Below, piece after piece: positions 1 to 17,254 of a DNA stretch of 64,000 bases; position 1 is the first letter of the stretch, and every line of letters starts with the position of its first letter. The position numbers and the translations under genes are program-made. The notes under the pieces were generated by a model. The model ran no database searches, was not told where the DNA came from, and saw nothing but the letters and a program-made list of their open reading frames with translations. Source of the DNA: Sphaerochaeta associata (GTDB taxonomy: Bacteria > Spirochaetota > Spirochaetia > Sphaerochaetales > Sphaerochaetaceae); NCBI RefSeq assembly GCF_022869165.1, contig NZ_CP094929.1:2418001-2482000 (forward strand), in the 5' to 3' direction.

Positions 1-1
1 A

Positions 2-2116
2 AAGCATGCTATCGGGGATGGGAATTCGGGTTTCATCATCAACAGCGACGGAACCAGCGAGTTCGTCGGTACGGTCATCCGTAACGCCGATCTCTCGGAG
101 ACCCGCATCGAGCGCCTTGATGCCGATGTGCTGCGTACCGTCAACGAGGTGCGAACCGGCGAATCATTCAACGGCTCGTTGTCCTCCACCCCGTATTGGG
201 ACTTGGGGACGGTGATGGGGGATCTCATCGCCCAGGTCACGCCCAACGCTGTGGTGCACAAGGGCGGCTCGTTCATGGCTACCAAGGTGGAAGGGGGCTC
301 TGTATCCACCGTCTTCGAGAACGTGTTGCATGTCACCTCGTCTGGTGAGCGCGATCAGGACCGCAGCCTGCTCAGCCAGCAGATCACCACGGCAAATGCG
401 GAAACCGCTTTCACCGTCCCCTCCCTGCCTGCTTACACCCAGTCTCCTCTAAAGCTTGGAGGAGTCAACTACCTTGCGAAAATCACCTCCACAGGTGCTG
501 AGGTTGCAGGCAAGAAGCAGTACTCGCTCGATGGAGGGGGCACCTGGACCGACTACGACAGTCGCACACTCGATCATGCGACGGTTGCGGGCAAGACGGT
601 CAAGGTGCGCCAAGTGCTCAGCGGCACCTTGTATGACCCAGGCAGTTGTACGACCGGACGAGTATCTGGCATCAGTTCGACATCCTCATCAACCCCTCAC
701 TTGGCGGAGGGAAACGGCAGGATGGTAGTCGCTTGGGGCTCGACGCTCAAATCATTTCCCACCGGGAACGTGGGCTCGGTCTCATCCTATTCGCTGAGCA
801 CCGCGTATCCTTCCACCATCGGTCTGGCATTCGGCAATGGTATCTTCCTGGCGCTCTGCTCGGGCTCGGTCCAACGCCGTGTACTCTCAGGTGGAGCGAA
901 CGGCACTTCGTGGAGCGAGCTGTCCAGCGAAGCTTACGACAACCTGTTCTTCGCCAATGGATACTTTTACGCCCATGTGCTTGGCGGAGGGGCCTCCGAT
1001 TGGAAACGCTCGACCAACGGAAGCGGGTGGACAGCCGCAGGTTTCACCTGTGCCCATCCATTCCCATCCTACAATAACGATTTCATGAACTCACGCATCG
1101 CATACGGAAACGGCGTCTATATCCAGGTAAGCTATGTCACCCTCTCATCAGCATCGGTGTATCGAAGCACCGATGGGCAGAACTGGAGTGCGATCAATAT
1201 CGCCGCTACGTGTCCCACCGCCATCGCCTACGGATCCGGATTCTTCATCGCCTATGAATACGGCAGTGCGTATTACTATGTCTCGGGCAACGGAGGAACC
1301 ACCTGGTCCAAACGCTCCCTGGGCTACACGCCCACCAAGATGGGTTCTGCCGTCTATGCCGCCAGTGGAGCCAATCCCGCTTCGACGGGTACCACGCTAC
1401 AGCGGGTGTTCTACGCCATCGACAGCGCGGGGTATCTCAGTGCCCTGACGCTGGGTGAGGCAACACCCACCTCCTATACGGCCGGGACACTCAGTGCAGC
1501 CTACAACTACAGCGCCTATGATGTGGGAGTGAACCTCCTGGATGGGCAGGGGGCAAAGATCGGCAGCCATACCACGGCCAAGGATTATTATGCCGGTACG
1601 TTCATCTTCGATGGGACCAACCTCTCTGCAGCCTTGGGTTCGTACTACTACAAGTTCGCAGGCATCTTCAAAGCCGGCACCCAGGTGGCTGCCGGGGCCT
1701 TCGACATGTTCCAAAGCATCGCCATTGCATGGAACCGTATCTACAACAGCATCGAAAGTCCTGTGGCAAGTCCTGCGATCGTAAGCTGGTCGGGAACCAG
1801 TTTGACGATAACCGGTGCCGGGGGAGCGACCTCTCGCATCCGCAGCAACGACCTGTTCTCAGCCCTTTCAATCTCCTTCACCGTGATCGCCGAGGCGAAG
1901 GGAGCGTACACCAAGGCCCTGTATCCCCAACAAGCAGGCCAATATGACATCGGCGTGTCCTCGAATCCATATGCGAATGTCCATGCGAACACGTTCCATG
2001 GGAATCTGCAAGGGAGCGTGAGTGGGAATGTGAGTGGCAACGTCACCGGTAATGTGACGGGAAATGTGAATGCACAAGGCACCCCCAACAAGGTGTGGGG
2101 GGCTGTGTGGAACTAG
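2..2116 (+). CDS. phage tail fibre / host-recognition-like protein, 5' end outside window
   Basis: The frame is open from the first bases, so the N-terminus lies upstream; 704 residues are visible. The middle (roughly residues 225-450) carries several short Asp-box-like motifs such as STDGQNW, SGNGGTTW and STNGSGW, typical of BNR/sialidase-type beta-propeller blades. The C-terminus has the look of tail-fibre tips: a segment YANVHANTFHG followed by a low-complexity GNVSGNVTGNV run and a terminal GAVWN. The role inferred is binding to a surface as the distal part of a phage tail or tail-like particle. It is followed after 11 nt by the next gene of the same operon. The tail assignment rests on overall character, not on a named family. 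Confidence 0.7.
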   Translation, partial: KHAIGDGNSGFIINSDGTSEFVGTVIRNADLSETRIERLDADVLRTVNEVRTGESFNGSLSSTPYWDLGTVMGDLIAQVTPNAVVHKGGSFMATKVEGGSVSTVFENVLHVTSSGERDQDRSLLSQQITTANAETAFTVPSLPAYTQSPLKLGGVNYLAKITSTGAEVAGKKQYSLDGGGTWTDYDSRTLDHATVAGKTVKVRQVLSGTLYDPGSCTTGRVSGISSTSSSTPHLAEGNGRMVVAWGSTLKSFPTGNVGSVSSYSLSTAYPSTIGLAFGNGIFLALCSGSVQRRVLSGGANGTSWSELSSEAYDNLFFANGYFYAHVLGGGASDWKRSTNGSGWTAAGFTCAHPFPSYNNDFMNSRIAYGNGVYIQVSYVTLSSASVYRSTDGQNWSAINIAATCPTAIAYGSGFFIAYEYGSAYYYVSGNGGTTWSKRSLGYTPTKMGSAVYAASGANPASTGTTLQRVFYAIDSAGYLSALTLGEATPTSYTAGTLSAAYNYSAYDVGVNLLDGQGAKIGSHTTAKDYYAGTFIFDGTNLSAALGSYYYKFAGIFKAGTQVAAGAFDMFQSIAIAWNRIYNSIESPVASPAIVSWSGTSLTITGAGGATSRIRSNDLFSALSISFTVIAEAKGAYTKALYPQQAGQYDIGVSSNPYANVHANTFHGNLQGSVSGNVSGNVTGNVTGNVNAQGTPNKVWGAVWN

Positions 2117-2127
2117 GAGGAACAACC

Positions 2128-2442
2128 ATGCAATGCAATGAATGTGGACGGCAGCTGACCAAGCTGCCCTTCATCTTGGACGACAGTGAGATCGCCGACA
2201 TGCAACTGGCGATCGACAAGACCAACACCGCGCAGACCGCCCTGAAGGCTGAGGTGTACGCATCCTACCGATTCGAGCAGGAAAGGGACATCTACGCCTA
2301 CTTCAAGGCGGTCTTCGACGAGATGGCGGAGGGCAGGTTCCTGTATGCCATCTGGGAGCGTCGCGTGCGTAGTCATTACAACTACCCCGAGGGCGAGCTC
2401 CTGGTGATCAACGGCGAGTGCTTCGCCCATGAGGAATCGTGA
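2128..2442 (+). CDS. small CxxC protein of the tail operon, unknown function
   Basis: This encodes 104 residues starting with MQCNECGRQL, so a CxxC pair sits at the very N-terminus; the rest is charged and probably helical. The start is chosen at the ATG preceded by AGGAGGA at good spacing; a longer frame upstream would overlap the tail gene and has no better site. Its stop overlaps the start of the next gene (ATGA type), so translation is probably coupled. The position between a tail protein and a cysteine-rich protein suggests a structural or chaperone role in the same particle, but no family is recognised. Confidence 0.75.
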   Translation: MQCNECGRQLTKLPFILDDSEIADMQLAIDKTNTAQTALKAEVYASYRFEQERDIYAYFKAVFDEMAEGRFLYAIWERRVRSHYNYPEGELLVINGECFAHEES

Positions 2443-3089
2443 TGGGAACCTATAATGATATCAGAAGCCGCTTCGAGGCGATCCAGGAGGCCTTCCGCGT
2501 CAACGGTTACCAGCGCTACGACAACTATTATGTGTTCTCCCCGCCTGCTGGCTTCGCCATCGGTCTTCCCATGAAGGCTTCGGACATGAACAGCATGAAG
2601 GATGCGCTGCAGGGTAATACCCGCGCGTTTCTGTATACCACCTACCCCATCGCCTCGGTTGCAACGGGAAGTCTGATCAGCGCCAATCTGCTGAGCCAGA
2701 TCGACCAGTACAAACAGGATATCAATGATCTGCGCGGCTGTGCCAGCTGCAGTAATACGTGCAACTCGACGTGCTACAACGGCTGTCACAACTGCACCGG
2801 AGGGTGTACCGGATCATGCACCGGGTGTAGTGGCTGTACCGGTTGTAGTGGATGCTCGGGCAACTGCTACAGTTGCAAAGGAGGACTGTGGTGTGTTTCG
2901 TGTCATGGGTGCAGTGGATGCGGAGGATGTAGCGGATGCGGGGGATGCAGCGCAAATTGTCAGAACGCATGCTCGGGCTGCACTTCCTGCAGTACCAACT
3001 GCAACGCAGACTGCAACGTAAACTGCTCCGGCGGGTGTAAAAACTCCTGCTCAAGCGGTTGCTCGAACTCATCGCGCATTGGAGGCTGA
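2442..3089 (+). CDS. tail-associated protein with 31-cysteine C-terminal domain, candidate radical SAM substrate
   Basis: This encodes 215 residues. Residues 1-99 form an ordinary soluble domain without cysteine. Residues 100-207 contain 31 cysteines, and every gap is CxxC or CxxxC except one KGGLW gap (Cys145-Cys151). The filler is almost only Gly, Ser, Thr and Asn, with GCSGCTGC-like triplets, and the tail ends SRIGG. The start is the ATG overlapping the previous stop, with GAGGA five bases upstream; a GTG one codon earlier is possible. The gene ends one base before the radical SAM/SPASM enzyme. Known families of such neighbours (ranthipeptide/SCIFF-type systems) install thioether crosslinks on Cys-rich peptides; that this happens here is inference. 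Plain metal binding or disulfide bonding is the alternative. Confidence 0.85.
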   Translation: MGTYNDIRSRFEAIQEAFRVNGYQRYDNYYVFSPPAGFAIGLPMKASDMNSMKDALQGNTRAFLYTTYPIASVATGSLISANLLSQIDQYKQDINDLRGCASCSNTCNSTCYNGCHNCTGGCTGSCTGCSGCTGCSGCSGNCYSCKGGLWCVSCHGCSGCGGCSGCGGCSANCQNACSGCTSCSTNCNADCNVNCSGGCKNSCSSGCSNSSRIGG

Positions 3090-3090
3090 T

Positions 3091-4347
3091 ATGCTCATTC
3101 CCTTTAGAGAACCCGGCTTGTTCAACGTAACGCTGAACACCACCGAGGACTGCAACCTCAGGTGCACCTACTGCTATGAGGTGCACAAGAGAAGAAGGAC
3201 GCTTTCGATGGAGGATGCAAAGGCCTTCATCGACCACATCCTCACCGACCCCGATCCTGCAGGGCTACTCGATGATCCTGATCCGGTCTTCCGCAAGGCA
3301 TACCAAAAGGGGCTCGTCGTCGATTTCATCGGTGGCGACAGCTTCATGGATGTGCCGTTTTTGGACGAGATCTGCTCATACACGCTGGCCAAGGTGATGA
3401 CCACCGACACCCCCAATGCCAGGAACTGGCGGGGGAAGCTCCATTTCTCCATCTCAACCAATGGCACGCTTTTCTCCGAGCAGGCCCGCCGGTTCTGCGA
3501 GAAGTACAAGGACCTGTTGCTGGTGGGTATATCGCTGGATGGCTGTCCTGAGATCCATGATGCAAACCGGGTGTTCCCCGATGGGAGTGGATCCTTGGGG
3601 AGCATCATCCGCCATTGGCCGTGGTATAAGAAGACCTTCCCGATCCAGTCGATGCAGACCAAGTCCACCGCGAACCGTCAGAGCATCCCTCATCTCTATG
3701 ACTCATTGGTTTATTTGCATGAACAGCTGGGAATCAGGTACATCAACCAGAACTTCATCATGGAGGACACCGGATGCACCCAAGCCGACTATGATGAGTT
3801 GGACCGTCAGATGGAAAAGTGCACCGCCTATGTGCTTAAGCATCGCGACGATCTGTTTTGGAGCATGCTCAGCAAGGAGCAGTTCGGCTACGCACACCTG
3901 TCCACAGGACCTGACTGGGACTGTACCGGCCACTGCGGAAGCGGAGCCATGCCTGCCCTTTCGGTGGACGGTAGGATCTATCCGTGCATCAGATGGCTGC
4001 CGCATACCCAAATCGACAAGGCAGAGTTCATCGTCGGGACCGCCAAGGAAGGGTTCACCCACAAGGAGAACTTTCTGAGAGTGCGCGAAGGCGCCTATCG
4101 CTCCAATTGCTCACTCGATGAAAAGTGCAGGACCTGCGAGGTGGAAAGTGCCTGTTCATACTGCATCGGAGGTTGCTATTCGGAGTTCGGCGAATTCAGG
4201 CGGACGACCTACATCTGCGAGATAACCAAGCTGCTGGTCAAATGGGCCAGACGGTACTGGGACGAGTACAACCGGCTTGAGGGATTGGAACCGATCGACT
4301 GGGCTGTTGAAGCAATGGAGAAAGGGAACCGGCATGGAATCATGTAG
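3091..4347 (+). CDS. radical SAM/SPASM enzyme, likely maturase of the Cys-rich tail protein
   Basis: This encodes 418 residues. The radical SAM motif CNLRCTYCYE (Cys21, Cys25, Cys28) lies at the N-terminus and should hold the SAM-binding [4Fe-4S] cluster. The C-terminal third has a SPASM-type cysteine set (CTGHCGSG, IYPCIRW, then CRTCEVESACSYCIGGC) for auxiliary clusters, as in peptide-modifying enzymes and sulfatase maturases. The start is the ATG one base after the Cys-rich gene's stop; GGAGG of that gene's end serves as ribosome site. No separate peptide-recognition (PqqD-like) gene is present. Next to a protein with 31 cysteines, post-translational modification of that protein is the simplest role. 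The substrate link is inference from adjacency. Confidence 0.85.
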   Translation: MLIPFREPGLFNVTLNTTEDCNLRCTYCYEVHKRRRTLSMEDAKAFIDHILTDPDPAGLLDDPDPVFRKAYQKGLVVDFIGGDSFMDVPFLDEICSYTLAKVMTTDTPNARNWRGKLHFSISTNGTLFSEQARRFCEKYKDLLLVGISLDGCPEIHDANRVFPDGSGSLGSIIRHWPWYKKTFPIQSMQTKSTANRQSIPHLYDSLVYLHEQLGIRYINQNFIMEDTGCTQADYDELDRQMEKCTAYVLKHRDDLFWSMLSKEQFGYAHLSTGPDWDCTGHCGSGAMPALSVDGRIYPCIRWLPHTQIDKAEFIVGTAKEGFTHKENFLRVREGAYRSNCSLDEKCRTCEVESACSYCIGGCYSEFGEFRRTTYICEITKLLVKWARRYWDEYNRLEGLEPIDWAVEAMEKGNRHGIM

Positions 4348-6654: not shown

Positions 6655-8412
6655 GTGTACATCAACATCGACAAGCGCAACGGAGCCGTCGCCGAGGTAA
6701 CGTCCTACCGGGAACCTGGATGCAAATACCCCAAACAGCGCAAGGTGTACATAGGCAAGATGGACGAACAGGGCGCCTTCGTGCCCAACAAGTTCTTCAT
6801 CGAACGGTCAAGGAAGGAAGAACTCCAGGCCGAAGTGGAAAAGCTGCAGAAAGAGCTGGACGGCATGGACCGGGGGATCAGGAAGCAGCAGAAGGAGATG
6901 CAGGCCCTCTCCTCAGTTGTCTGCTCGGTCTCCGGGAAGAAGAAAGCCGGCCTCACCCATGCACTGGGGCACATCGCCGAGACAAAAGGGTTCGTGCAGG
7001 CGCTGCAGGGTGTCTTCGGCGGGGATTCGGCCAAGAAGATACTCTCCCTCTCCTATTATGTGCTCGCCACCAGGAACGAGGCCCTTGACGACTTCTGCTA
7101 TTTTGACGCCTCGCATGAGCATCCCTACGGCTCGGACATCGGCAGCAGCGAAAGCAGCGCCGTCCTTGCATCGATAAAGCCCGAGCATGTCAACGGGTTT
7201 TTCAAGGCGATGCGCGACGCAGGTCCTTCCAGGAGCAAGGAGGACCATTTCTGCGCCTTCGACGGGACCGCCTTCAGCTCGTATTCAAACAATCTGTCCG
7301 AGGTTGAGGTTTCAAGGGGCAAACAGGACCCGGACCTGAGGCATTTCGCCATGGCAGCGGTGTACAGCAGCAACGAGGGCAGGTGCGCCTACTACCGGCT
7401 GTACCGGGGGAACATACCCGACATCAAGACCATCGACAACTTCGTCGACGTGACCAAGGCGATGGGGTACAACTTCCGAAGAATGGTCCTGGACAGGGGG
7501 TACTGCAGCTACAGCAACCTCCATCGGCTGTACCATGAGTGCCGATACGAGGTGATCATGTGCATGAAGTCCAACATGTCGGTGTACAAGGATGCTCTGC
7601 AGACAACGCGCGGGACCTTCGAGGCCGACAGCACCTGCTATCTGGCGGAGCATGCTGTGTATGGCAAGACCGTCAAGCAGAGCATTGTCCTAACCGACAA
7701 CCTCGGAGTCGAACACCCGACCACTGCGTACGTACATGTCTACTACAACAGGCTGAAGGCTGCCGAACAGGAGCCCAAGCTGTACAGGGACCTGGAGGAC
7801 TCCATCGCCGAGCTGACCGAGAAGGTGCAGAAGAAGGAACTGTCCGTCAGCGATGCACAGAAGAGGTTGTTTTCCTGCAAGCAGAAGGCCCTGGTTTCAG
7901 TGCGCAAGACCGGCAACAGCAGGTGCGTCTTCGAGATGGATTGCAAGAAGGTCGACGGGGCTGCCGGCAAGCTAGGCTATTTCGTACTGCTGAGTACGGA
8001 GAATCTCACCGCCGCCCAGGTGCTGGACATCTACCGGTCAAAGGATGGGGTGGAGCGGGTGTTCAACAACGTGAAGAACGACATCGGGTTCGACCGCCCT
8101 GCCGTGAAGACCGATGCCACCCTCGAGGGCAAGGTGTTCATAGTCATGCTTGCAGGCATGCTTTCCACAATCATCCGCAACGCCATGCGTGCCCACCGGA
8201 AGGAACTGACCCGAAAGATGACCTACGGCAAGCTGGTAAAGGAACTGGAATGCATGTACAGCTTCACCATCAAGGGCAAGACACAGTGGTGTGAGATATC
8301 AGAGAAGCAGGCAATGATCTTGAGATGCCTGGGTGTTCCCTTACCGGTGAAATCGCAGGATGTTCAGGCTCAACTGGTGAAAAAGCGCGGCCCGAAACCC
8401 AAAGCAAGATAA
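6655..8412 (+). CDS. IS1634/IS4-superfamily DDE transposase
   Basis: This encodes 585 residues, full length for the family, and catalyses cut-and-paste movement of the surrounding element. Catalytic candidates are the Asp in AFDGTAFSS, the Asp in VLDRGYCS and the Glu in DIYRSKDGVERVF, the last resembling the YREK region of IS4-type enzymes. An N-terminal coiled coil (about residues 53-85) and a basic C-terminal tail are visible. The start is GTG with AAGGAG upstream. A likely promoter (TTGACT at 6594, TAGATA at 6618, 18-bp spacing) lies inside the element. No frameshift is present, so it may be active. Confidence 0.92.
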   Translation: MYINIDKRNGAVAEVTSYREPGCKYPKQRKVYIGKMDEQGAFVPNKFFIERSRKEELQAEVEKLQKELDGMDRGIRKQQKEMQALSSVVCSVSGKKKAGLTHALGHIAETKGFVQALQGVFGGDSAKKILSLSYYVLATRNEALDDFCYFDASHEHPYGSDIGSSESSAVLASIKPEHVNGFFKAMRDAGPSRSKEDHFCAFDGTAFSSYSNNLSEVEVSRGKQDPDLRHFAMAAVYSSNEGRCAYYRLYRGNIPDIKTIDNFVDVTKAMGYNFRRMVLDRGYCSYSNLHRLYHECRYEVIMCMKSNMSVYKDALQTTRGTFEADSTCYLAEHAVYGKTVKQSIVLTDNLGVEHPTTAYVHVYYNRLKAAEQEPKLYRDLEDSIAELTEKVQKKELSVSDAQKRLFSCKQKALVSVRKTGNSRCVFEMDCKKVDGAAGKLGYFVLLSTENLTAAQVLDIYRSKDGVERVFNNVKNDIGFDRPAVKTDATLEGKVFIVMLAGMLSTIIRNAMRAHRKELTRKMTYGKLVKELECMYSFTIKGKTQWCEISEKQAMILRCLGVPLPVKSQDVQAQLVKKRGPKPKAR

Positions 8413-8421
8413 TCTTTTCGC

Positions 8422-8441
8422 ACTACATTAAAGAACATGGG
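8422..8441 (-). repeat. right terminal inverted repeat of the IS
   Basis: This is a perfect inverted copy of 6507-6526, located 9 bases after the transposase stop codon. Confidence 0.9.
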
Positions 8442-8447
8442 TTCAAA
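8442..8447. repeat. target-site duplication TTCAAA, right copy
   Basis: This is the second copy of the hexamer next to the right IS end. It is in the same frame as the downstream half of the interrupted gene. Confidence 0.85.
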
Positions 8448-8840
8448 TATCTGAAGCGCAAATGGTGGGAGAATGAAAAATTAGCATATATGTTTGACAA
8501 CGAGGGAAATAGAGCGGATAGTCCTGACTATAATCCTGACGATGCTTGGTTTGAAAATGATGAGTAAGTTTTCATAAACCGACTCTTCTTAGGGTAGAGA
8601 AAACGAGTAGCACCAAGCATTCATATCGAATTTGGGCTACCTCTTATCCTAAACGCAGATGAGCTGTCATACAGAACAATACAGCCGAAAGGTATAAACG
8701 GCTCTACTAGAATGAACTGTTCCTGACTTTGGGAAAATGTATTTTTTACCAAGAAGTTCAAAGCCGTATCCATCCATCAGGGGCTCCTCGCTCCCTGCAC
8801 CCGTGTAAATGGTTGAATGTATGAATAGTTGAATAGCTCA

Positions 8841-10706
8841 TCAGAAAGCCCTCACAGGGATAACCCTGAATTCGAGGTCTCGTGAGTTGGCGTTCTGCCC
8901 TCCATTGCGGAAATTCTGGAGCCACGCGTAGTAGCCGCTGTACTCCGAAGAACTCCAGTAGTACCCGGATTCAGATAAGACCTCTTGGTAATTTCCTCTG
9001 AGATTATGGCTGAGATCATAGTATAGCATCAGTTCATCCTTACTCGGTAGAAACCAGTCGTCATACGTCACCCCATCCTTAATCACAACGAGATCGGCAC
9101 AAACCTTCGCCGCATAGTCAGCTTTGAATTTATGTGGTTCGGAGTTGCCAAACCTTGCCACTATCTTCTCAGTATTGCTCTTTCCCGTTCCGATTGCTGT
9201 TTCGGTCCCCTTTACAGTTATATACATTCCTCCCCACACTTTCTCACTGAATTCATGGCTTGCGGAGGCAGCCTCCAGATACCGCCACCCATCGCTGTTT
9301 GAGCCCTTGTCGTAGAAGATAACACCTCCCGCTGGGCCAACATCGCCAATGATATAATAGTCTCTCCAATTCGCATATAAAATCATGTCTGATAATATTT
9401 TATCACTTTCAAAATCCCACGGTATCGAATACCCTGTATCTTTATACCATCCTTCAAACACATATCCTTTTTTATATGGAATTGCGGGTTCGGCTATGGT
9501 TGAACCTGGGGAAATGTTGGATATTGGATTGATAGAGCTCCCACCACTACTATCAAATTTTACGGATTTCAACCTAATCCATTTCGCATATAATTTCACA
9601 GGTTCCGACTTATCCCATGTTTTCAGACTTTCCATCGTATCGGAATAATATGCAGTCCCTCTCCCGTCCATATCATCAAAATATCCATCAAATATATATC
9701 CACTCCGAGTCGGTGCGCTTGCAGATGGCATAGAGACCCCATAACCCACAGTTATACTCCCTGTTCCTCCAGAACCTCCTTGGGAATCAAGAGTCACGGA
9801 GTAATCATTCACCCTCCACTTTGCATAAAGCGTCATATCATCAAGCAGGACATCATTTTTGAAATCCCATGCCAGACCATATTGTGCATCATTATACCAT
9901 CCTTCAAAGGAATAGCCTTTTCTGGAGGGTTTCGCAGGCTCTCCGATGACGGAACCAAAGGTTTGTCCAGTCAAGTCAGGTGTGTCAGCCCCATTGAAGG
10001 CAACCCTCAGGCCTGAACGTATTGATAACAAAACCTCTTTCGGCTCTGTAGGCATTTCTTGGAACATTCCTGAAATTGGCAGCTTATAACTTATGACCTT
10101 CCCTTCAAATCCGAAATCAGTGACTGAGATGTAAACGGTTTCAGAACCCTGAAAGAATTTTCTCCGCTCCTCTTCGTTTTCTCCGAAGGTTACCCAGAAC
10201 TCCAGAACCTCGTTGTATGCATCCACTTTCTTCGCACGCACGACAGGATGATTGCCGACACGCAGGAAATCTCCCTTGTCATTGTCGAGGAACATGTACT
10301 CAAAGAATCTTGGATCGATAGTGAATGAACTCGAGCCGATTAATTCATCATTCCTCTCATACCTGAGGAAAACCAGAAAAATCCCACTCATCTCTTGCTG
10401 GCGGTCCAAGGCTTTCGTCTGTAACTCAAGCCTGCTTGCCATCTGCGGGGTGCTGTACCGCTTGTTCTTCATGTCAGGATACTCGCTCAGTACATATGTC
10501 TCGCTCAGCAAAGGCACTGCTGTAAGTTGCAGCGGTCCGTTTTTCAGGGTGAACGGCTGTACAACTTGTTGGAAATAGGTCGAAACGGAATCCCTTCTCT
10601 CAAGGATTGTCCTCGCATACGTCGTGTTTTCATTCACCCCGCCCCCAAAAAGACTCAGGCCGGCCAAACAAAATATTACAGCAGTTAGAATCCAAATCTT
10701 CTTCAT
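8841..10706 (-). CDS. secreted protein with three InlB-type repeats and C-terminal DUF1566/Lcl-like domain
   Basis: This encodes 621 residues. The N-terminus (MKKIWILTAVIF) is a signal peptide. After a non-repeated region of about 225 residues come three copies of the InlB B-repeat (Listeria-Bacteroides) fold, marked by GYSFEGWYND, GYIFDGYFDD and GYVFEGWYKD, each ending in LYAKW or LYANW. The C-terminal about 150 residues match the DUF1566/Lcl type: GPAGGVIFYDKG, WFLPSKDEL, YYWSSSEY and a final VIPVRAF. Such proteins are cell-surface or periplasmic adhesin-like proteins, abundant in treponemes and Sphaerochaeta. The start has GAGGGGG upstream. Ligand unknown. Confidence 0.88.
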   Translation of the reverse strand: MKKIWILTAVIFCLAGLSLFGGGVNENTTYARTILERRDSVSTYFQQVVQPFTLKNGPLQLTAVPLLSETYVLSEYPDMKNKRYSTPQMASRLELQTKALDRQQEMSGIFLVFLRYERNDELIGSSSFTIDPRFFEYMFLDNDKGDFLRVGNHPVVRAKKVDAYNEVLEFWVTFGENEEERRKFFQGSETVYISVTDFGFEGKVISYKLPISGMFQEMPTEPKEVLLSIRSGLRVAFNGADTPDLTGQTFGSVIGEPAKPSRKGYSFEGWYNDAQYGLAWDFKNDVLLDDMTLYAKWRVNDYSVTLDSQGGSGGTGSITVGYGVSMPSASAPTRSGYIFDGYFDDMDGRGTAYYSDTMESLKTWDKSEPVKLYAKWIRLKSVKFDSSGGSSINPISNISPGSTIAEPAIPYKKGYVFEGWYKDTGYSIPWDFESDKILSDMILYANWRDYYIIGDVGPAGGVIFYDKGSNSDGWRYLEAASASHEFSEKVWGGMYITVKGTETAIGTGKSNTEKIVARFGNSEPHKFKADYAAKVCADLVVIKDGVTYDDWFLPSKDELMLYYDLSHNLRGNYQEVLSESGYYWSSSEYSGYYAWLQNFRNGGQNANSRDLEFRVIPVRAF

Positions 10707-13937: not shown

Positions 13938-15242
13938 GTGAGAACAGTTAAGCTGATACAAAAACCAAAGCAACCGGCAACCAAAAACCGAAAAAAACGA
14001 GTTGCAGCCTATGCAAGGGTCTCTACGGTACATGAACGACAAGAGCATTCTCTTGAATCCCAGGTCGATCATTACAAGAGACTGATTCAAGCTAATCCTG
14101 AATGGGAATACCAGGGGATCTACATTGATGATGGCATCTCCGGAACACAGATAACAGGCAGAACGCAATTCCAAGAACTCATCACCAAATGCGAGCAAGG
14201 CATGATTGACATTGTCCTGACGAAATCGATATCGCGATTTGCCAGAAATACGGTCGACTTGCTTGAGACTGTAAGGCGGTTGAAGGAACTCAACATCGAT
14301 GTCAGGTTCGAGAAAGAAAATATTGAAACAATCTCGAGTACAGGAGAATTGCTTCTGACCGTCTTGGCATCATTTGCTCAAGAGGAAAGCAGAAGTACTT
14401 CTGAAAACCTCAGGTGGGGGGTCCGGAAACGTTACGAGAAGGGAATCAGCCTTCACCACCGCGTCTATGGATACCGGTGGACCGGCAAGGAGCTCGTCAT
14501 TGAACCAACGACCGCAAAGGTAGTGAGAAAGATATTCAGGGATTATCTGAAGGGAAAGTCGATGAAACGTATTGCTGACGAACTGAACAATCGTTCCATC
14601 CCACACTTTGGAAAACCTTTCAATGATGTGGCAATACATACCATTCTACACAACGAGCGTTATATCGGTGATACCTTGCTCCAGAAAACATATTGCATGG
14701 ATTTCATGTCCCAACCACGAAAGAAGAATCGCGGGGAGCATCCCATGTACTATGTCGAGGATACGCACCCACCGATCATCAAGCGGGAAATATTCGAAGC
14801 CGTCTCGAGAGAGATTGACCGTCGAAGAGAACTCGGGGTGTACAACATGCCCAAGGTGAGTCGGCGTTGTTTCACCGGTAAAATCATCTGCGAGAAATGC
14901 GGAAACAACTATATCCGGACCTACAAGACACCAACCAATGCGAATTGGAGATGCAAATCCAACCGAAGAGATGGAATCAAAGGATGCAGGAGCATCGGTA
15001 TCAATGAGGAACAGTTGAAGATTCTGTCCAATTTCATGTTGGGGCTCGACGAGTTTGATGAGCAAGCCTTTTACAAAGAGGTGGATCACATCTCCGGTGA
15101 TGGAGAGGGATCATATACCTTCCATTTTTGTGATGGACGGCAAATCAACCGGTTCTGGCCATCCCGGGAAAAAGCCTATAAGGCAGCAATCGACAGAAGA
15201 AGAAAAACCAATGACAACGGAGCGCATGCATGGCAAAGGTAA
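13938..15242 (+). CDS. large serine recombinase 1
   Basis: This encodes 434 residues. The N-terminal resolvase domain carries YARVST with the catalytic Ser29, and the SRFARN and EENI-type elements of serine integrases. A recombinase domain follows (about residues 170-280). A zinc ribbon with CEKCG and WRCKSNRRDGIKGC sits near residues 320-355. The C-terminus is shorter than in the second enzyme and lacks a long coiled coil. Start GTG after AAGGAGG. The last 13 bases overlap the next recombinase. Known pairs of this kind integrate and excise mobile elements; no attachment sites could be fixed here. Confidence 0.9.
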   Translation: MRTVKLIQKPKQPATKNRKKRVAAYARVSTVHERQEHSLESQVDHYKRLIQANPEWEYQGIYIDDGISGTQITGRTQFQELITKCEQGMIDIVLTKSISRFARNTVDLLETVRRLKELNIDVRFEKENIETISSTGELLLTVLASFAQEESRSTSENLRWGVRKRYEKGISLHHRVYGYRWTGKELVIEPTTAKVVRKIFRDYLKGKSMKRIADELNNRSIPHFGKPFNDVAIHTILHNERYIGDTLLQKTYCMDFMSQPRKKNRGEHPMYYVEDTHPPIIKREIFEAVSREIDRRRELGVYNMPKVSRRCFTGKIICEKCGNNYIRTYKTPTNANWRCKSNRRDGIKGCRSIGINEEQLKILSNFMLGLDEFDEQAFYKEVDHISGDGEGSYTFHFCDGRQINRFWPSREKAYKAAIDRRRKTNDNGAHAWQR

Positions 15243-17254
15243 GGATAATTCCAGCAAAGAAGATCATAACAAACAATCGCAACAACCCCCATTCAACGAA
15301 AAGAAGGGTCGCCGGCTATGCCCGGGTTTCGACTGACAGTGATGAACAGTTCACCAGTTATGAAGCCCAGATCGAGTACTATACCGAATTCATAAAGAGT
15401 CGTCCTGATTGGGAATTCATCAAGGTCTATACCGATGAAGGCGTGAGTGGGACCAGCACCAATCGCAGGGAAGGCTTCAAGCAGATGATAAACGATGCCC
15501 TGTTGGGAGAGATTGATCTTATCGTCACCAAATCGGTCAGCCGATTTGCCAGAAATACCGTAGACAGCCTGACCACCATTCGCATGCTCAAGGAGAAGAA
15601 TGTCGAATGCTACTTCGAAAAAGAAAACATTTGGACCTTCGACGGTAAAGGTGAATTATTGATAACCATCATGAGTTCGATCGCACAGGAAGAAAGCCGG
15701 TCGATCTCCGAAAACACCACATGGGGTAAGCGAAAGCAAGCCAAGGATGGTAAGGTTTCAGTTCCCTACAGCAACTTCCTTGGGTATGACAAAGGGCCTG
15801 ATGGAAACATGGTCGTGAATGAGGAACAAGCTGAATTGGTAAGACTCATCTACGCTCTGTTCCTTCAGGGAAAGAGCCCGAATGGGATCGCCGAGATTCT
15901 CACCGAGAAAAACATCCCCTCACCCGGACGAGGGAAACAATGGGTTTCTTCCTGTATCAAGAGCATCCTACAGAATGAGAAATATATCGGGGATGCCTTG
16001 TTGCAAAAAAGCTTCACTGTAGACTTCCTCACCCATAAGCAGAAGGTGAACGAAGGAGAGGTACCACAGTACTATGTGGAAGACCATCATGAACCGATCG
16101 TATCCAAAGAAATGTTTGCTCTAGTCCAGACCGAGATGAAACGGCGCGATGGGATGCCTGGCAGACGAAACCGCCGGAGAATGCTTTCAGGACGAATCCT
16201 CTGTGCCCAGTGCGGATCTTGGTTTGGAGAGAAGAAATGGCATCCAAACAGCAAATATCAGAAAGTGGTTTGGCAATGCAATGGGAAATATGATAAGGCA
16301 CACTCCCAATGTACCTCAGGCAACTTGATAGAACAGGATGTCCAGAGAATGTTCGTGGTAGCGGTCAACAGACTACTGAAGGATTCATCCAGCATTCTTG
16401 AAACACAGAAACTTGTCTACGATACGGTTTTCGATACCGCTGGTCTGGAAAGGGAAAGGACGGCACTCATAGCTGACATGAGTGTTACAGCCGAACTCAT
16501 GGAGCGAATGTCGAGTGGACAACCCAGCTCAAGATCCAATGGATATACCCATACTCAAGAGTATCAAGCACTACAGATACGTTATGAGCAGGCTGAGAAA
16601 CGTAAGGAGGAGCTCGACAGTACTATCCAGGACAAGGTAGCCAAAAAGGCACTGGCAACTTCATTTTTCGATAATCTCAAGAAGCAGAATAGCCAGGTCG
16701 TGCGTTTTGATGAGGACCTATGGAGCGGACTGGTTGATCATCTCAAGGTACATTCTCCAAATGATGTCCGATTCATCTTCCGCGATGGATCTGAAATCAA
16801 GGTTGACTTATCCGAAGAGGAAAAGAAACGCCCTCCTCTCACAGAGAAACAGATGACTGAGATCAGCAGTCTTCGGCGAGAGGGAATGTCTTATGCGAAG
16901 ATCGGAGAAAAGCTGAATCTTCCTCGTGGACAGGTTCGCAGCTTCTGCCTTTCCAGAACTTCGGAAAATGAGGCTGCTGTACATGAAGAAGGAGAGGATG
17001 TGCTCTGCAAGACCTGCGGGAAAGAGCTTGAACATACCCCTGGTTTTAGGAAAAAGATTTTTTGTTCGGACGGATGCAGGCAGGATTGGTGGAATCGGTA
17101 TGCAAAATTCAAAGCTGGCGAAGGGCGGGCCACAAACAAAGTTATTTGTCAAAACTGTGGTGAGAAGTTCGTGGCCTATGGCACCAAACGAAAATATTGC
17201 AGCCGAAAGTGCTATTCCGAGCACAGGGGGCAAGAAGGAGATTCAAAGGACTGA
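15230..17254 (+). CDS. large serine recombinase 2 with fused HTH/zinc-ribbon domain
   Basis: This encodes 674 residues. The catalytic domain has GYARVST (Ser34) and SRFARNT; the recombinase domain and zinc ribbon (CAQCGSWF and a later VWQCNGKY...C) follow, then a coiled-coil region (about 400-490). From about residue 543 the protein repeats the whole HTH plus double zinc-ribbon module of the two small genes upstream (MTEISSLRREGMSYAKIGEK; LCKTCG; FCSDGC; CQNCG; YCSRKC). The start overlaps recombinase 1 by 13 bases, implying coupled synthesis and a probable hetero-complex. The fusion is unusual and visible directly. Confidence 0.9.
   Translation: MAKVRIIPAKKIITNNRNNPHSTKRRVAGYARVSTDSDEQFTSYEAQIEYYTEFIKSRPDWEFIKVYTDEGVSGTSTNRREGFKQMINDALLGEIDLIVTKSVSRFARNTVDSLTTIRMLKEKNVECYFEKENIWTFDGKGELLITIMSSIAQEESRSISENTTWGKRKQAKDGKVSVPYSNFLGYDKGPDGNMVVNEEQAELVRLIYALFLQGKSPNGIAEILTEKNIPSPGRGKQWVSSCIKSILQNEKYIGDALLQKSFTVDFLTHKQKVNEGEVPQYYVEDHHEPIVSKEMFALVQTEMKRRDGMPGRRNRRRMLSGRILCAQCGSWFGEKKWHPNSKYQKVVWQCNGKYDKAHSQCTSGNLIEQDVQRMFVVAVNRLLKDSSSILETQKLVYDTVFDTAGLERERTALIADMSVTAELMERMSSGQPSSRSNGYTHTQEYQALQIRYEQAEKRKEELDSTIQDKVAKKALATSFFDNLKKQNSQVVRFDEDLWSGLVDHLKVHSPNDVRFIFRDGSEIKVDLSEEEKKRPPLTEKQMTEISSLRREGMSYAKIGEKLNLPRGQVRSFCLSRTSENEAAVHEEGEDVLCKTCGKELEHTPGFRKKIFCSDGCRQDWWNRYAKFKAGEGRATNKVICQNCGEKFVAYGTKRKYCSRKCYSEHRGQEGDSKD

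Follow-up and report, generated by a model that had tools for sequence, protein, structure and literature searches.

Closest described systems

Radical S-adenosylmethionine (SAM) maturases of ribosomally synthesized and post-translationally modified peptides (RiPPs) are known for making small peptides. In a 64,000-nucleotide stretch of the Sphaerochaeta associata genome (GCF_022869165.1, contig NZ_CP094929.1, positions 2,418,001 to 2,482,000 of the forward strand; hereafter the window), such an enzyme (P0002) is encoded within a prophage, in a cassette of three genes that also encodes a Cys-rich repeat protein (P0001) and a small protein (P0003). The cassette is best read as a phage-captured form of the CXXX-repeat RiPP system in which the putative substrate is a protein, and the comparisons reported here suggest that some phages chemically cross-link a part of their tail.

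The CXXX-repeat RiPP system consists of in-silico families (TIGR04114, TIGR04115, TIGR04116, TIGR04117 and TIGR04119) and shares a three-part logic with the phage cassettes: a target with Cys at every fourth residue, a radical SAM/SPASM enzyme and an accessory protein of about 90 amino acids. Among the bacterial loci compared (loci are designated by L numbers), those of Clostridia (L058-L061) possessed TIGR04119 and TIGR04116, and the chromosomal L058 enzyme scored 554.4 bits against TIGR04115, while the target of L025 matched TIGR04117 with 43 bits. TatA/TatC, ABC-exporter or subtilase-like neighbours were recognised from sequence in L025 and the Clostridia loci. L025 is a 6.8-kb GenBank record labelled 'Bacteriophage sp.' that holds a full CXXX-repeat RiPP cluster with TatA/TatC-like genes, because of which it is probably bacterial and not phage; its repeat composition is very similar to that of the phage repeats.

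Several thioether-forming maturases offer further comparisons. The residues joined to Cys differ among them, being Thr for CteB, Asp for the freyrasin enzyme and Asn for NxxcA (PMC8326336). SCIFF precursors (TIGR03974; CteA-CteB) are free peptides of about 45 residues with six Cys, a single one of which has been shown to be linked in one SCIFF, and CteB carries an N-terminal RRE domain (PMC8326336). PapB (NF047865), whose precursors have many Cys, joins Cys to Asp/Glu (PMC9413430). QhpD, the maturase of quinohemoprotein amine dehydrogenase, cross-links Cys to Asp/Glu inside a protein and not in a free peptide (PMC8326336), so that a protein substrate, which the first-pass annotation of the window had set against the free peptides of known systems, does have a precedent; it makes few such links in an enzyme subunit, with no repeat and no phage. 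No paper joining radical SAM maturases with phage structural proteins was found in the open-access literature, to which the search was confined, and priority is accordingly uncertain.

A three-gene cassette closing a prophage tail operon

The three genes lie on the plus strand and close the tail operon of the prophage. An AGGAGG ribosome-binding site (2115..2120; sequence AACTAGGAGGAACAACCATG) precedes the gene for P0003 (104 aa; 2128..2442), the stop of which overlaps the start of the gene for P0001 (215 aa; 2442..3089) in the sequence TGATG. The TGA stop of P0001 (3087-3089) is separated by one base from the ATG (3091) of P0002 (418 aa; 3091..4347), in agreement with the first-pass annotation, which had paired these two genes and made no mention of P0003 or of a complete phage. 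A long tail-fibre-like gene (1105 aa, plus strand; genome 2416799-2420116, its 3' part being window 1..2116) ends 11 nt before the cassette. It had no PHROG match of its own and directly follows genes for PHROG tail and tail-fibre proteins. Families of the large terminase, portal, major head, head-tail adaptor, minor tail, tape measure and tail-fibre proteins were all found upstream in the same genome, which bears out the earlier placement of the pair at the end of a tail operon, beside a fibre gene. Judged from this gene content, the element is a complete siphophage-type prophage; a 44-kb virus in IMG/VR is the same element. Of the earlier alternatives, phage or tailocin, the second was rejected, because a tailocin has tail genes without head or packaging genes and a terminase, a portal and a major head protein are encoded upstream.

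All 31 Cys of P0001 fall within a repeat domain of 108 residues, which had been described as the last 108 of the protein and in fact spans residues 100-207 of 215 (2739..3062). Of the 30 Cys-Cys spacings, 29 are exactly three or four residues (15 CxxC and 14 CxxxC steps), and Asp and Glu together make up 0.9% of the repeat (0% in the repeats of L008 and of phage SPN3US). For residues 1-99 (2442..2738), AlphaFold2 predicted three helices with a predicted local distance difference test (pLDDT) of about 47-72, giving moderate support to the folded N-terminal domain proposed earlier. This domain had no significant match in Pfam, PHROG or NCBIfam and no homologue in GenBank phages, and a structure search of P0001 against viral models gave weak, uncharacterised matches (best E=0.16), which were not used as evidence. 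The predicted domain stands where bacterial CXXX peptides have their export signal or leader.

Across eight Sphaerochaetaceae copies, 31 of 31 Cys were invariant while 19 of their 31 codons varied between TGT and TGC. The mean ratio of nonsynonymous to synonymous substitution rates (dN/dS) was 0.024 for the repeat, 0.108 for the N-terminal domain, 0.057 for the whole Cys-rich gene and 0.049 for the enzyme gene; both genes are under strong purifying selection.

The radical SAM/SPASM enzyme

P0002 possessed both the CxxxCxxC ligands of the SAM [4Fe-4S] cluster (CNLRCTYC, residues 21-28; 3151..3174) and the auxiliary-cluster Cys of a SPASM domain (C282, C299, C346, C349, C355, C358 and C376; 3934..4218), all of them invariant in 13 homologues, and it scored above the Pfam Radical_SAM cut-off. 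Its best NCBIfam family was TIGR04115 (7e-68, 229.7 bits), below the curated cut-off of 350; the phage enzymes of L049 (216 bits), L041 (219.5 bits) and L026 (300.6 bits) likewise remained below it, in contrast to that of L058. In the enzyme tree, the phage proteins close to P0002 grouped together with support (97/99), separately from the bacterial CXXX proteins (97/97). The L026, L164 and L146 enzymes and those of SPN3US type fell into additional phage lineages, whose placement was weaker or involved long branches.

PapB was the second-best family (130 bits); SCIFF scored 76 bits and QhpD 66.6 bits (a weak relation). By sequence profile, the closest solved protein was CteB (5WGG, E=4e-28), which also came first, with 5WHY/5WGG at E about 1e-16, when the AlphaFold2 model (pLDDT 73.6; predicted template modelling score 0.78) was searched against the PDB with Foldseek, ahead of anSME, ChlB and TigE; a resemblance to the EpeE structure was found as well. 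The kinship with ranthipeptide/SCIFF enzymes that had been noted earlier thus applies to the structure and not to the closest family. Membership in SCIFF was ruled out, as the score is far from the cut-off of 425 and P0001, with 31 Cys in 215 aa, is not a short six-Cys precursor; moreover, with a radical SAM domain that begins near residue 10, P0002 has no room for an RRE domain. PapB-type membership was excluded by the score and by the near-absence of Asp and Glu from the repeat of P0001, owing to which Cys-Asp/Glu linkage cannot be general there.

The small accessory protein

P0003 begins with a zinc-ribbon-like CNECG motif, and a similar small protein adjoins the pair in L014, L015, L041 (two copies), L042 and L049. 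A profile of six such sequences found matches in all five phage records searched; as five of its six rows come from records searched, the match in L013 (E=1.7e-8) is the independent one. The profile had no match in the L008 genome. P0003 itself did not match TIGR04116 ('CXXX repeat peptide modification system protein') in the NCBIfam scan, and the L041 protein scored 14.3 bits, below the curated cut-off of 50. When the phage profile (A4) was aligned by hhalign with a bacterial profile of TIGR04116 type (A5, two small proteins of which scored 101-105 bits to TIGR04116), the match reached E=5e-6 (86%). On this profile comparison, the phage small protein is remotely homologous to TIGR04116, and it may act as an adaptor.

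Co-occurrence of the Cys-repeat gene and the enzyme

All close relatives of the enzyme (45-52% identity) found in other phages and prophages were accompanied by a Cys-repeat gene. Near the enzyme, this gene encoded 260 aa as listed with 31 Cys in L008, 489 aa with 92 Cys in L014, 246 aa with 34 in L015, 540 aa with 73 in L041, 338 aa with 46 in L042 and 415 aa with 71 in L049. The phages are unrelated, range from 40 to 290 kb and are joined by SPN3US-like giant phages of Salmonella, Erwinia and Cronobacter. L013, a 195-kb contig, was rejected as an exception without substrate, since its CXXX gene lies in trans at the far end (194.1-195.4 kb); its small-protein relative is at 73.8 kb. The L013 radical SAM gene (7410-9455) holds an intein-like insert inside CxxxCxxC (CNLRCKY, about 170 aa, CYEL), and in L042, a 159-kb phage contig, two more radical SAM-like genes (54-2324) lie just upstream of the cassette. 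Eight Sphaerochaetaceae genomes had an enzyme gene that was intact or truncated by a contig end, and in all of them the Cys gene lay beside it (one cut by the contig end). A ninth copy, in a congener (G114:C2:784368-785021; L023/L035), is a decayed enzyme comprising residues 200-417 with two TAG stops; the short locus surrounding it yielded no Cys-rich gene. The pattern named at the outset as a refutation of the pairing, Cys-rich homologues regularly lacking the radical SAM gene, was therefore not what was observed.

The phage proteins showed the features of a CXXX target, namely Cys at every fourth position in a repeat rich in Gly, Ser, Thr and Asn. Exact CxxxC steps made up 80 of 91 in L014, 27 of 30 in L008 and 17 of 20 in SPN3US, while P0001 mixes the two spacings; the L026 repeat exceeded the TIGR04114 cut-off (21.3 against 20). 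P0001 and the L008 protein share the C-terminal ending CKNSCxSGCSNxxRIG. IMG/VR was scanned for exact matches to a DNA pattern encoding eight CxxxC steps, and ten records among the matches listed were tested whole and sorted by eye on repeat composition. An enzyme was present in 5/5 records with a Ser/Gly/Thr/Asn-type repeat (L129, L143, L146, L164 and L147) and in 0/5 decoys, which had simple GGP/GPR-type repeats or antisense open reading frames (ORFs). Among the five, L143, L146 and L164 had an enzyme match before whole-record testing, L143 has a weak one (1.2e-7), and L147 is Cronobacter phage CR5, a phage not new to the analysis. The pattern method found no IMG/VR relative of the gut-phage enzyme of L026 among the matches listed.

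The phage version differs from the bacterial system in several respects. Its target is a protein of 130-540 aa with a phage domain in place of a Tat or leader peptide, and it is mostly located within virion gene clusters. The TIGR04119 domain was not found in the phage cassettes, nor were a leader or export signal, a peptidase or an adjacent transporter in those examined.

SPN3US-like giant phages

In each of SPN3US, CR5 and ChrisDB, two radical SAM genes, annotated as 'putative radical SAM superfamily protein 1/2' (gp163/gp164), come after two Cys-repeat ORFs of 127-147 aa; PHROG 1802 is the phage radical SAM family. The pair adjoins the two CXXX-repeat ORFs and baseplate/fibre genes, and the arrangement differs from that of the window in having two enzymes, which are distant from P0002 (23-25% identity), and Cys-repeat N-termini unlike that of P0001. 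The enzyme type was matched in 79 GenBank records, of which 17 are unnamed gut sequences, the N-terminus of the first Cys ORF occurred in 72 GenBank phages of this kind, and every record checked carried both the Cys-repeat gene and the enzyme. SPFM12 and SPFM14 were rejected as cases of Cys genes without an enzyme, as an annotated radical SAM gene lies nearby.

The SPN3US cassette is next to gp167/gp168, and mass spectrometry has identified gp168-gp170 as virion proteins of the baseplate/tail fibre (PMC5694885). The SPN3US repeat ORFs (L028 5100-5492 and 5503-5907; NC_027402 143828-144220 and 143413-143817, minus strand) are unannotated or overlapped by gp166 in another frame: the first has no annotation, the annotated gp166 using a different frame, and many related GenBank records have no feature at this position. 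The frequent lack of annotation would explain why the repeats were overlooked in well-studied Salmonella giant phages; no paper linking the radical SAM pair to repeat proteins was found in the open-access literature. The SPN3US-like gp164 (264 aa; L028 7181-7975) lacks the N-terminal CxxxCxxC as annotated; it may be a partner without catalytic activity, or its gene start may be wrongly annotated.

Connection of the cassette with phage tails

Most pairs of Cys gene and enzyme adjoin tail or fibre genes, as had been asked of other tail operons in the first-pass annotation. A tail fibre gene flanks the cassette of L014, a tape measure gene and a collagen-repeat protein flank that of L008, and major-tail-type Ig domains are encoded beside that of L026. 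In L164, a tail fibre gene is located upstream and a LamG lectin downstream, and the repeat shares its protein with an F5/8C-like domain, a weak match that stays below the cut-off. Within the Sphaerochaetaceae, the tail-fibre-like gene is 95-96% conserved in sister prophages carrying the cassette and replaced in those without it. Four sister prophage tails (L082-L085), with a tape measure and/or tail protein 64-94% identical, possessed none of the three genes and had a different fibre in the same slot, which indicates that the three genes are gained and lost as a block, along with the fibre.

Proposed role and alternative explanations

The slightly favoured reading is that the cassette is a phage-borne CXXX-repeat RiPP system which has been put to use in constructing part of the tail. 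That P0002 and P0001 are enzyme and substrate is highly probable, thioether chemistry is likely, and a place for the Cys-rich protein in the virion, at the distal tail, is somewhat less so but still favoured; the confidence in the whole takes into account that pairing, chemistry and virion place are not independent. During late (tail) gene expression, P0003 would help P0002 to bind P0001, and P0002 would form a 5'-deoxyadenosyl radical that, for each Cys, abstracts a hydrogen atom from a residue located a few positions away. The Cys sulphur would then be joined to that carbon in a thioether (-2 Da per link), with Ser, Thr, Asn or Gly as acceptors if thioethers form, because acidic residues are almost absent. 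The N-terminal domain may hold the product in the cytoplasm and anchor it to the distal tail or the long fibre; there the cross-linked repeat, being rigid and reduction-proof, could serve as a tip, spike or adhesin segment.

Several observations weigh against this reading. AlphaFold2 left the Cys repeat of P0001 unfolded (pLDDT < 40). The score of P0002 below the TIGR04115 cut-off means that its specificity could differ, and to our knowledge the chemistry of TIGR04115 enzymes has no experimental assignment. The all-or-none contrast among sister prophages concerns one tail type in one bacterial order. In two loci no obvious tail operon surrounds the cassette, its neighbours being primase, helicase and polymerase genes in L015 and other radical SAM genes in L042, so that the expected association with tail operons did not extend to these.

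These two loci would also suit a passenger RiPP, in which the modified Cys-rich protein does not belong to the particle but is freed when the cell lyses, or acts on the host, in the role of a toxin, signal or superinfection factor. The bacterial relatives are free, exported peptides, and the existence of sister phages without the cassette makes it dispensable for making this tail type. Such a role is nevertheless unlikely given the lack of a leader, peptidase and transporter in the phage cassettes, the tight coupling to the tail operon by an 11-nt gap and overlapping or 1-nt-spaced genes, the tail, fibre or baseplate neighbours in the window, L008, L014, L026, L164 and the SPN3US-like phages, the F5/8C-like domain fused to one repeat, and the exchange of the cassette together with the fibre. 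Another chemistry on the same protein (alpha-carbon sactionine or C-C links, epimerisation, or formation of formylglycine from Cys as anSME does), or modification of few sites only, is judged distinctly improbable. The likeness of P0002 to the anSME, ChlB, TigE and EpeE structures, the single linked Cys shown in a SCIFF (PMC8326336) and the scarcity of acidic residues, by which PapB chemistry cannot be general, speak for it, but the best structural match is the thioether former CteB, PapB is the second-best family and the selected feature of the substrate is Cys at fixed spacing.

Cys-rich repeats can also bind metals, and the Cys could serve metal binding or disulphides in the particle, the radical SAM enzyme doing something unrelated. 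This is very improbable, since the repeat gene and a TIGR04115-type enzyme occur together both in phages unrelated to one another and in the pattern sample. In addition, the bacterial counterpart is known as a pair of enzyme and target, and disulphides would be disfavoured while the particle is assembled in a reducing cytoplasm. Low-complexity Cys ORFs do arise by chance or antisense, as in the decoy class of the pattern sample, but such an artefact was ruled out for P0001; chance neighbourhood or a dead prophage gene is already contradicted by the dN/dS of the repeat, the invariant Cys with variable codons and the conservation across phyla, and has a negligible probability.

Flanking region

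A transposase-like gene (585 aa; window 6655-8412) lies just past the prophage end given by IMG/VR (about window 6600). On the minus strand, window 8841-10706 encodes a protein with repeated FEGWYxDxxxxxxWDF units, resembling Listeria-Bacteroides-repeat surface proteins. Two adjacent large ORFs (434 and 674 aa; window 13938-17254) have counterparts in L003 that start like serine recombinases (RVAAYARVSTxxxxQ). The search for att sites yielded a 14-bp repeat only, which was unconvincing, and a promoter and terminator scan of the region gave no more sites than shuffled sequences.

Implications

The broader claim, put at a little short of an even chance, is that RiPP-type radical SAM maturases have been taken up and retained by three or more phage lineages, and that these enzymes introduce tens of thioethers into a virion protein, a tail fibre or baseplate appendage. 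For the study of multi-site thioether enzymes, the cassettes would offer naturally occurring substrates that run to about 90 repeats, and phage radical SAM function becomes directly testable in SPN3US, for which amber-mutant genetics and virion mass spectrometry exist. If the proposed role is correct, it would explain the unexplained radical SAM genes of giant phages such as SPN3US, and would constitute a new job for radical SAM RiPP chemistry and a new type of post-translational cross-link in virions; phage particles would then include, as a structural material, a genetically encoded polypeptide with cross-links that withstand reduction.

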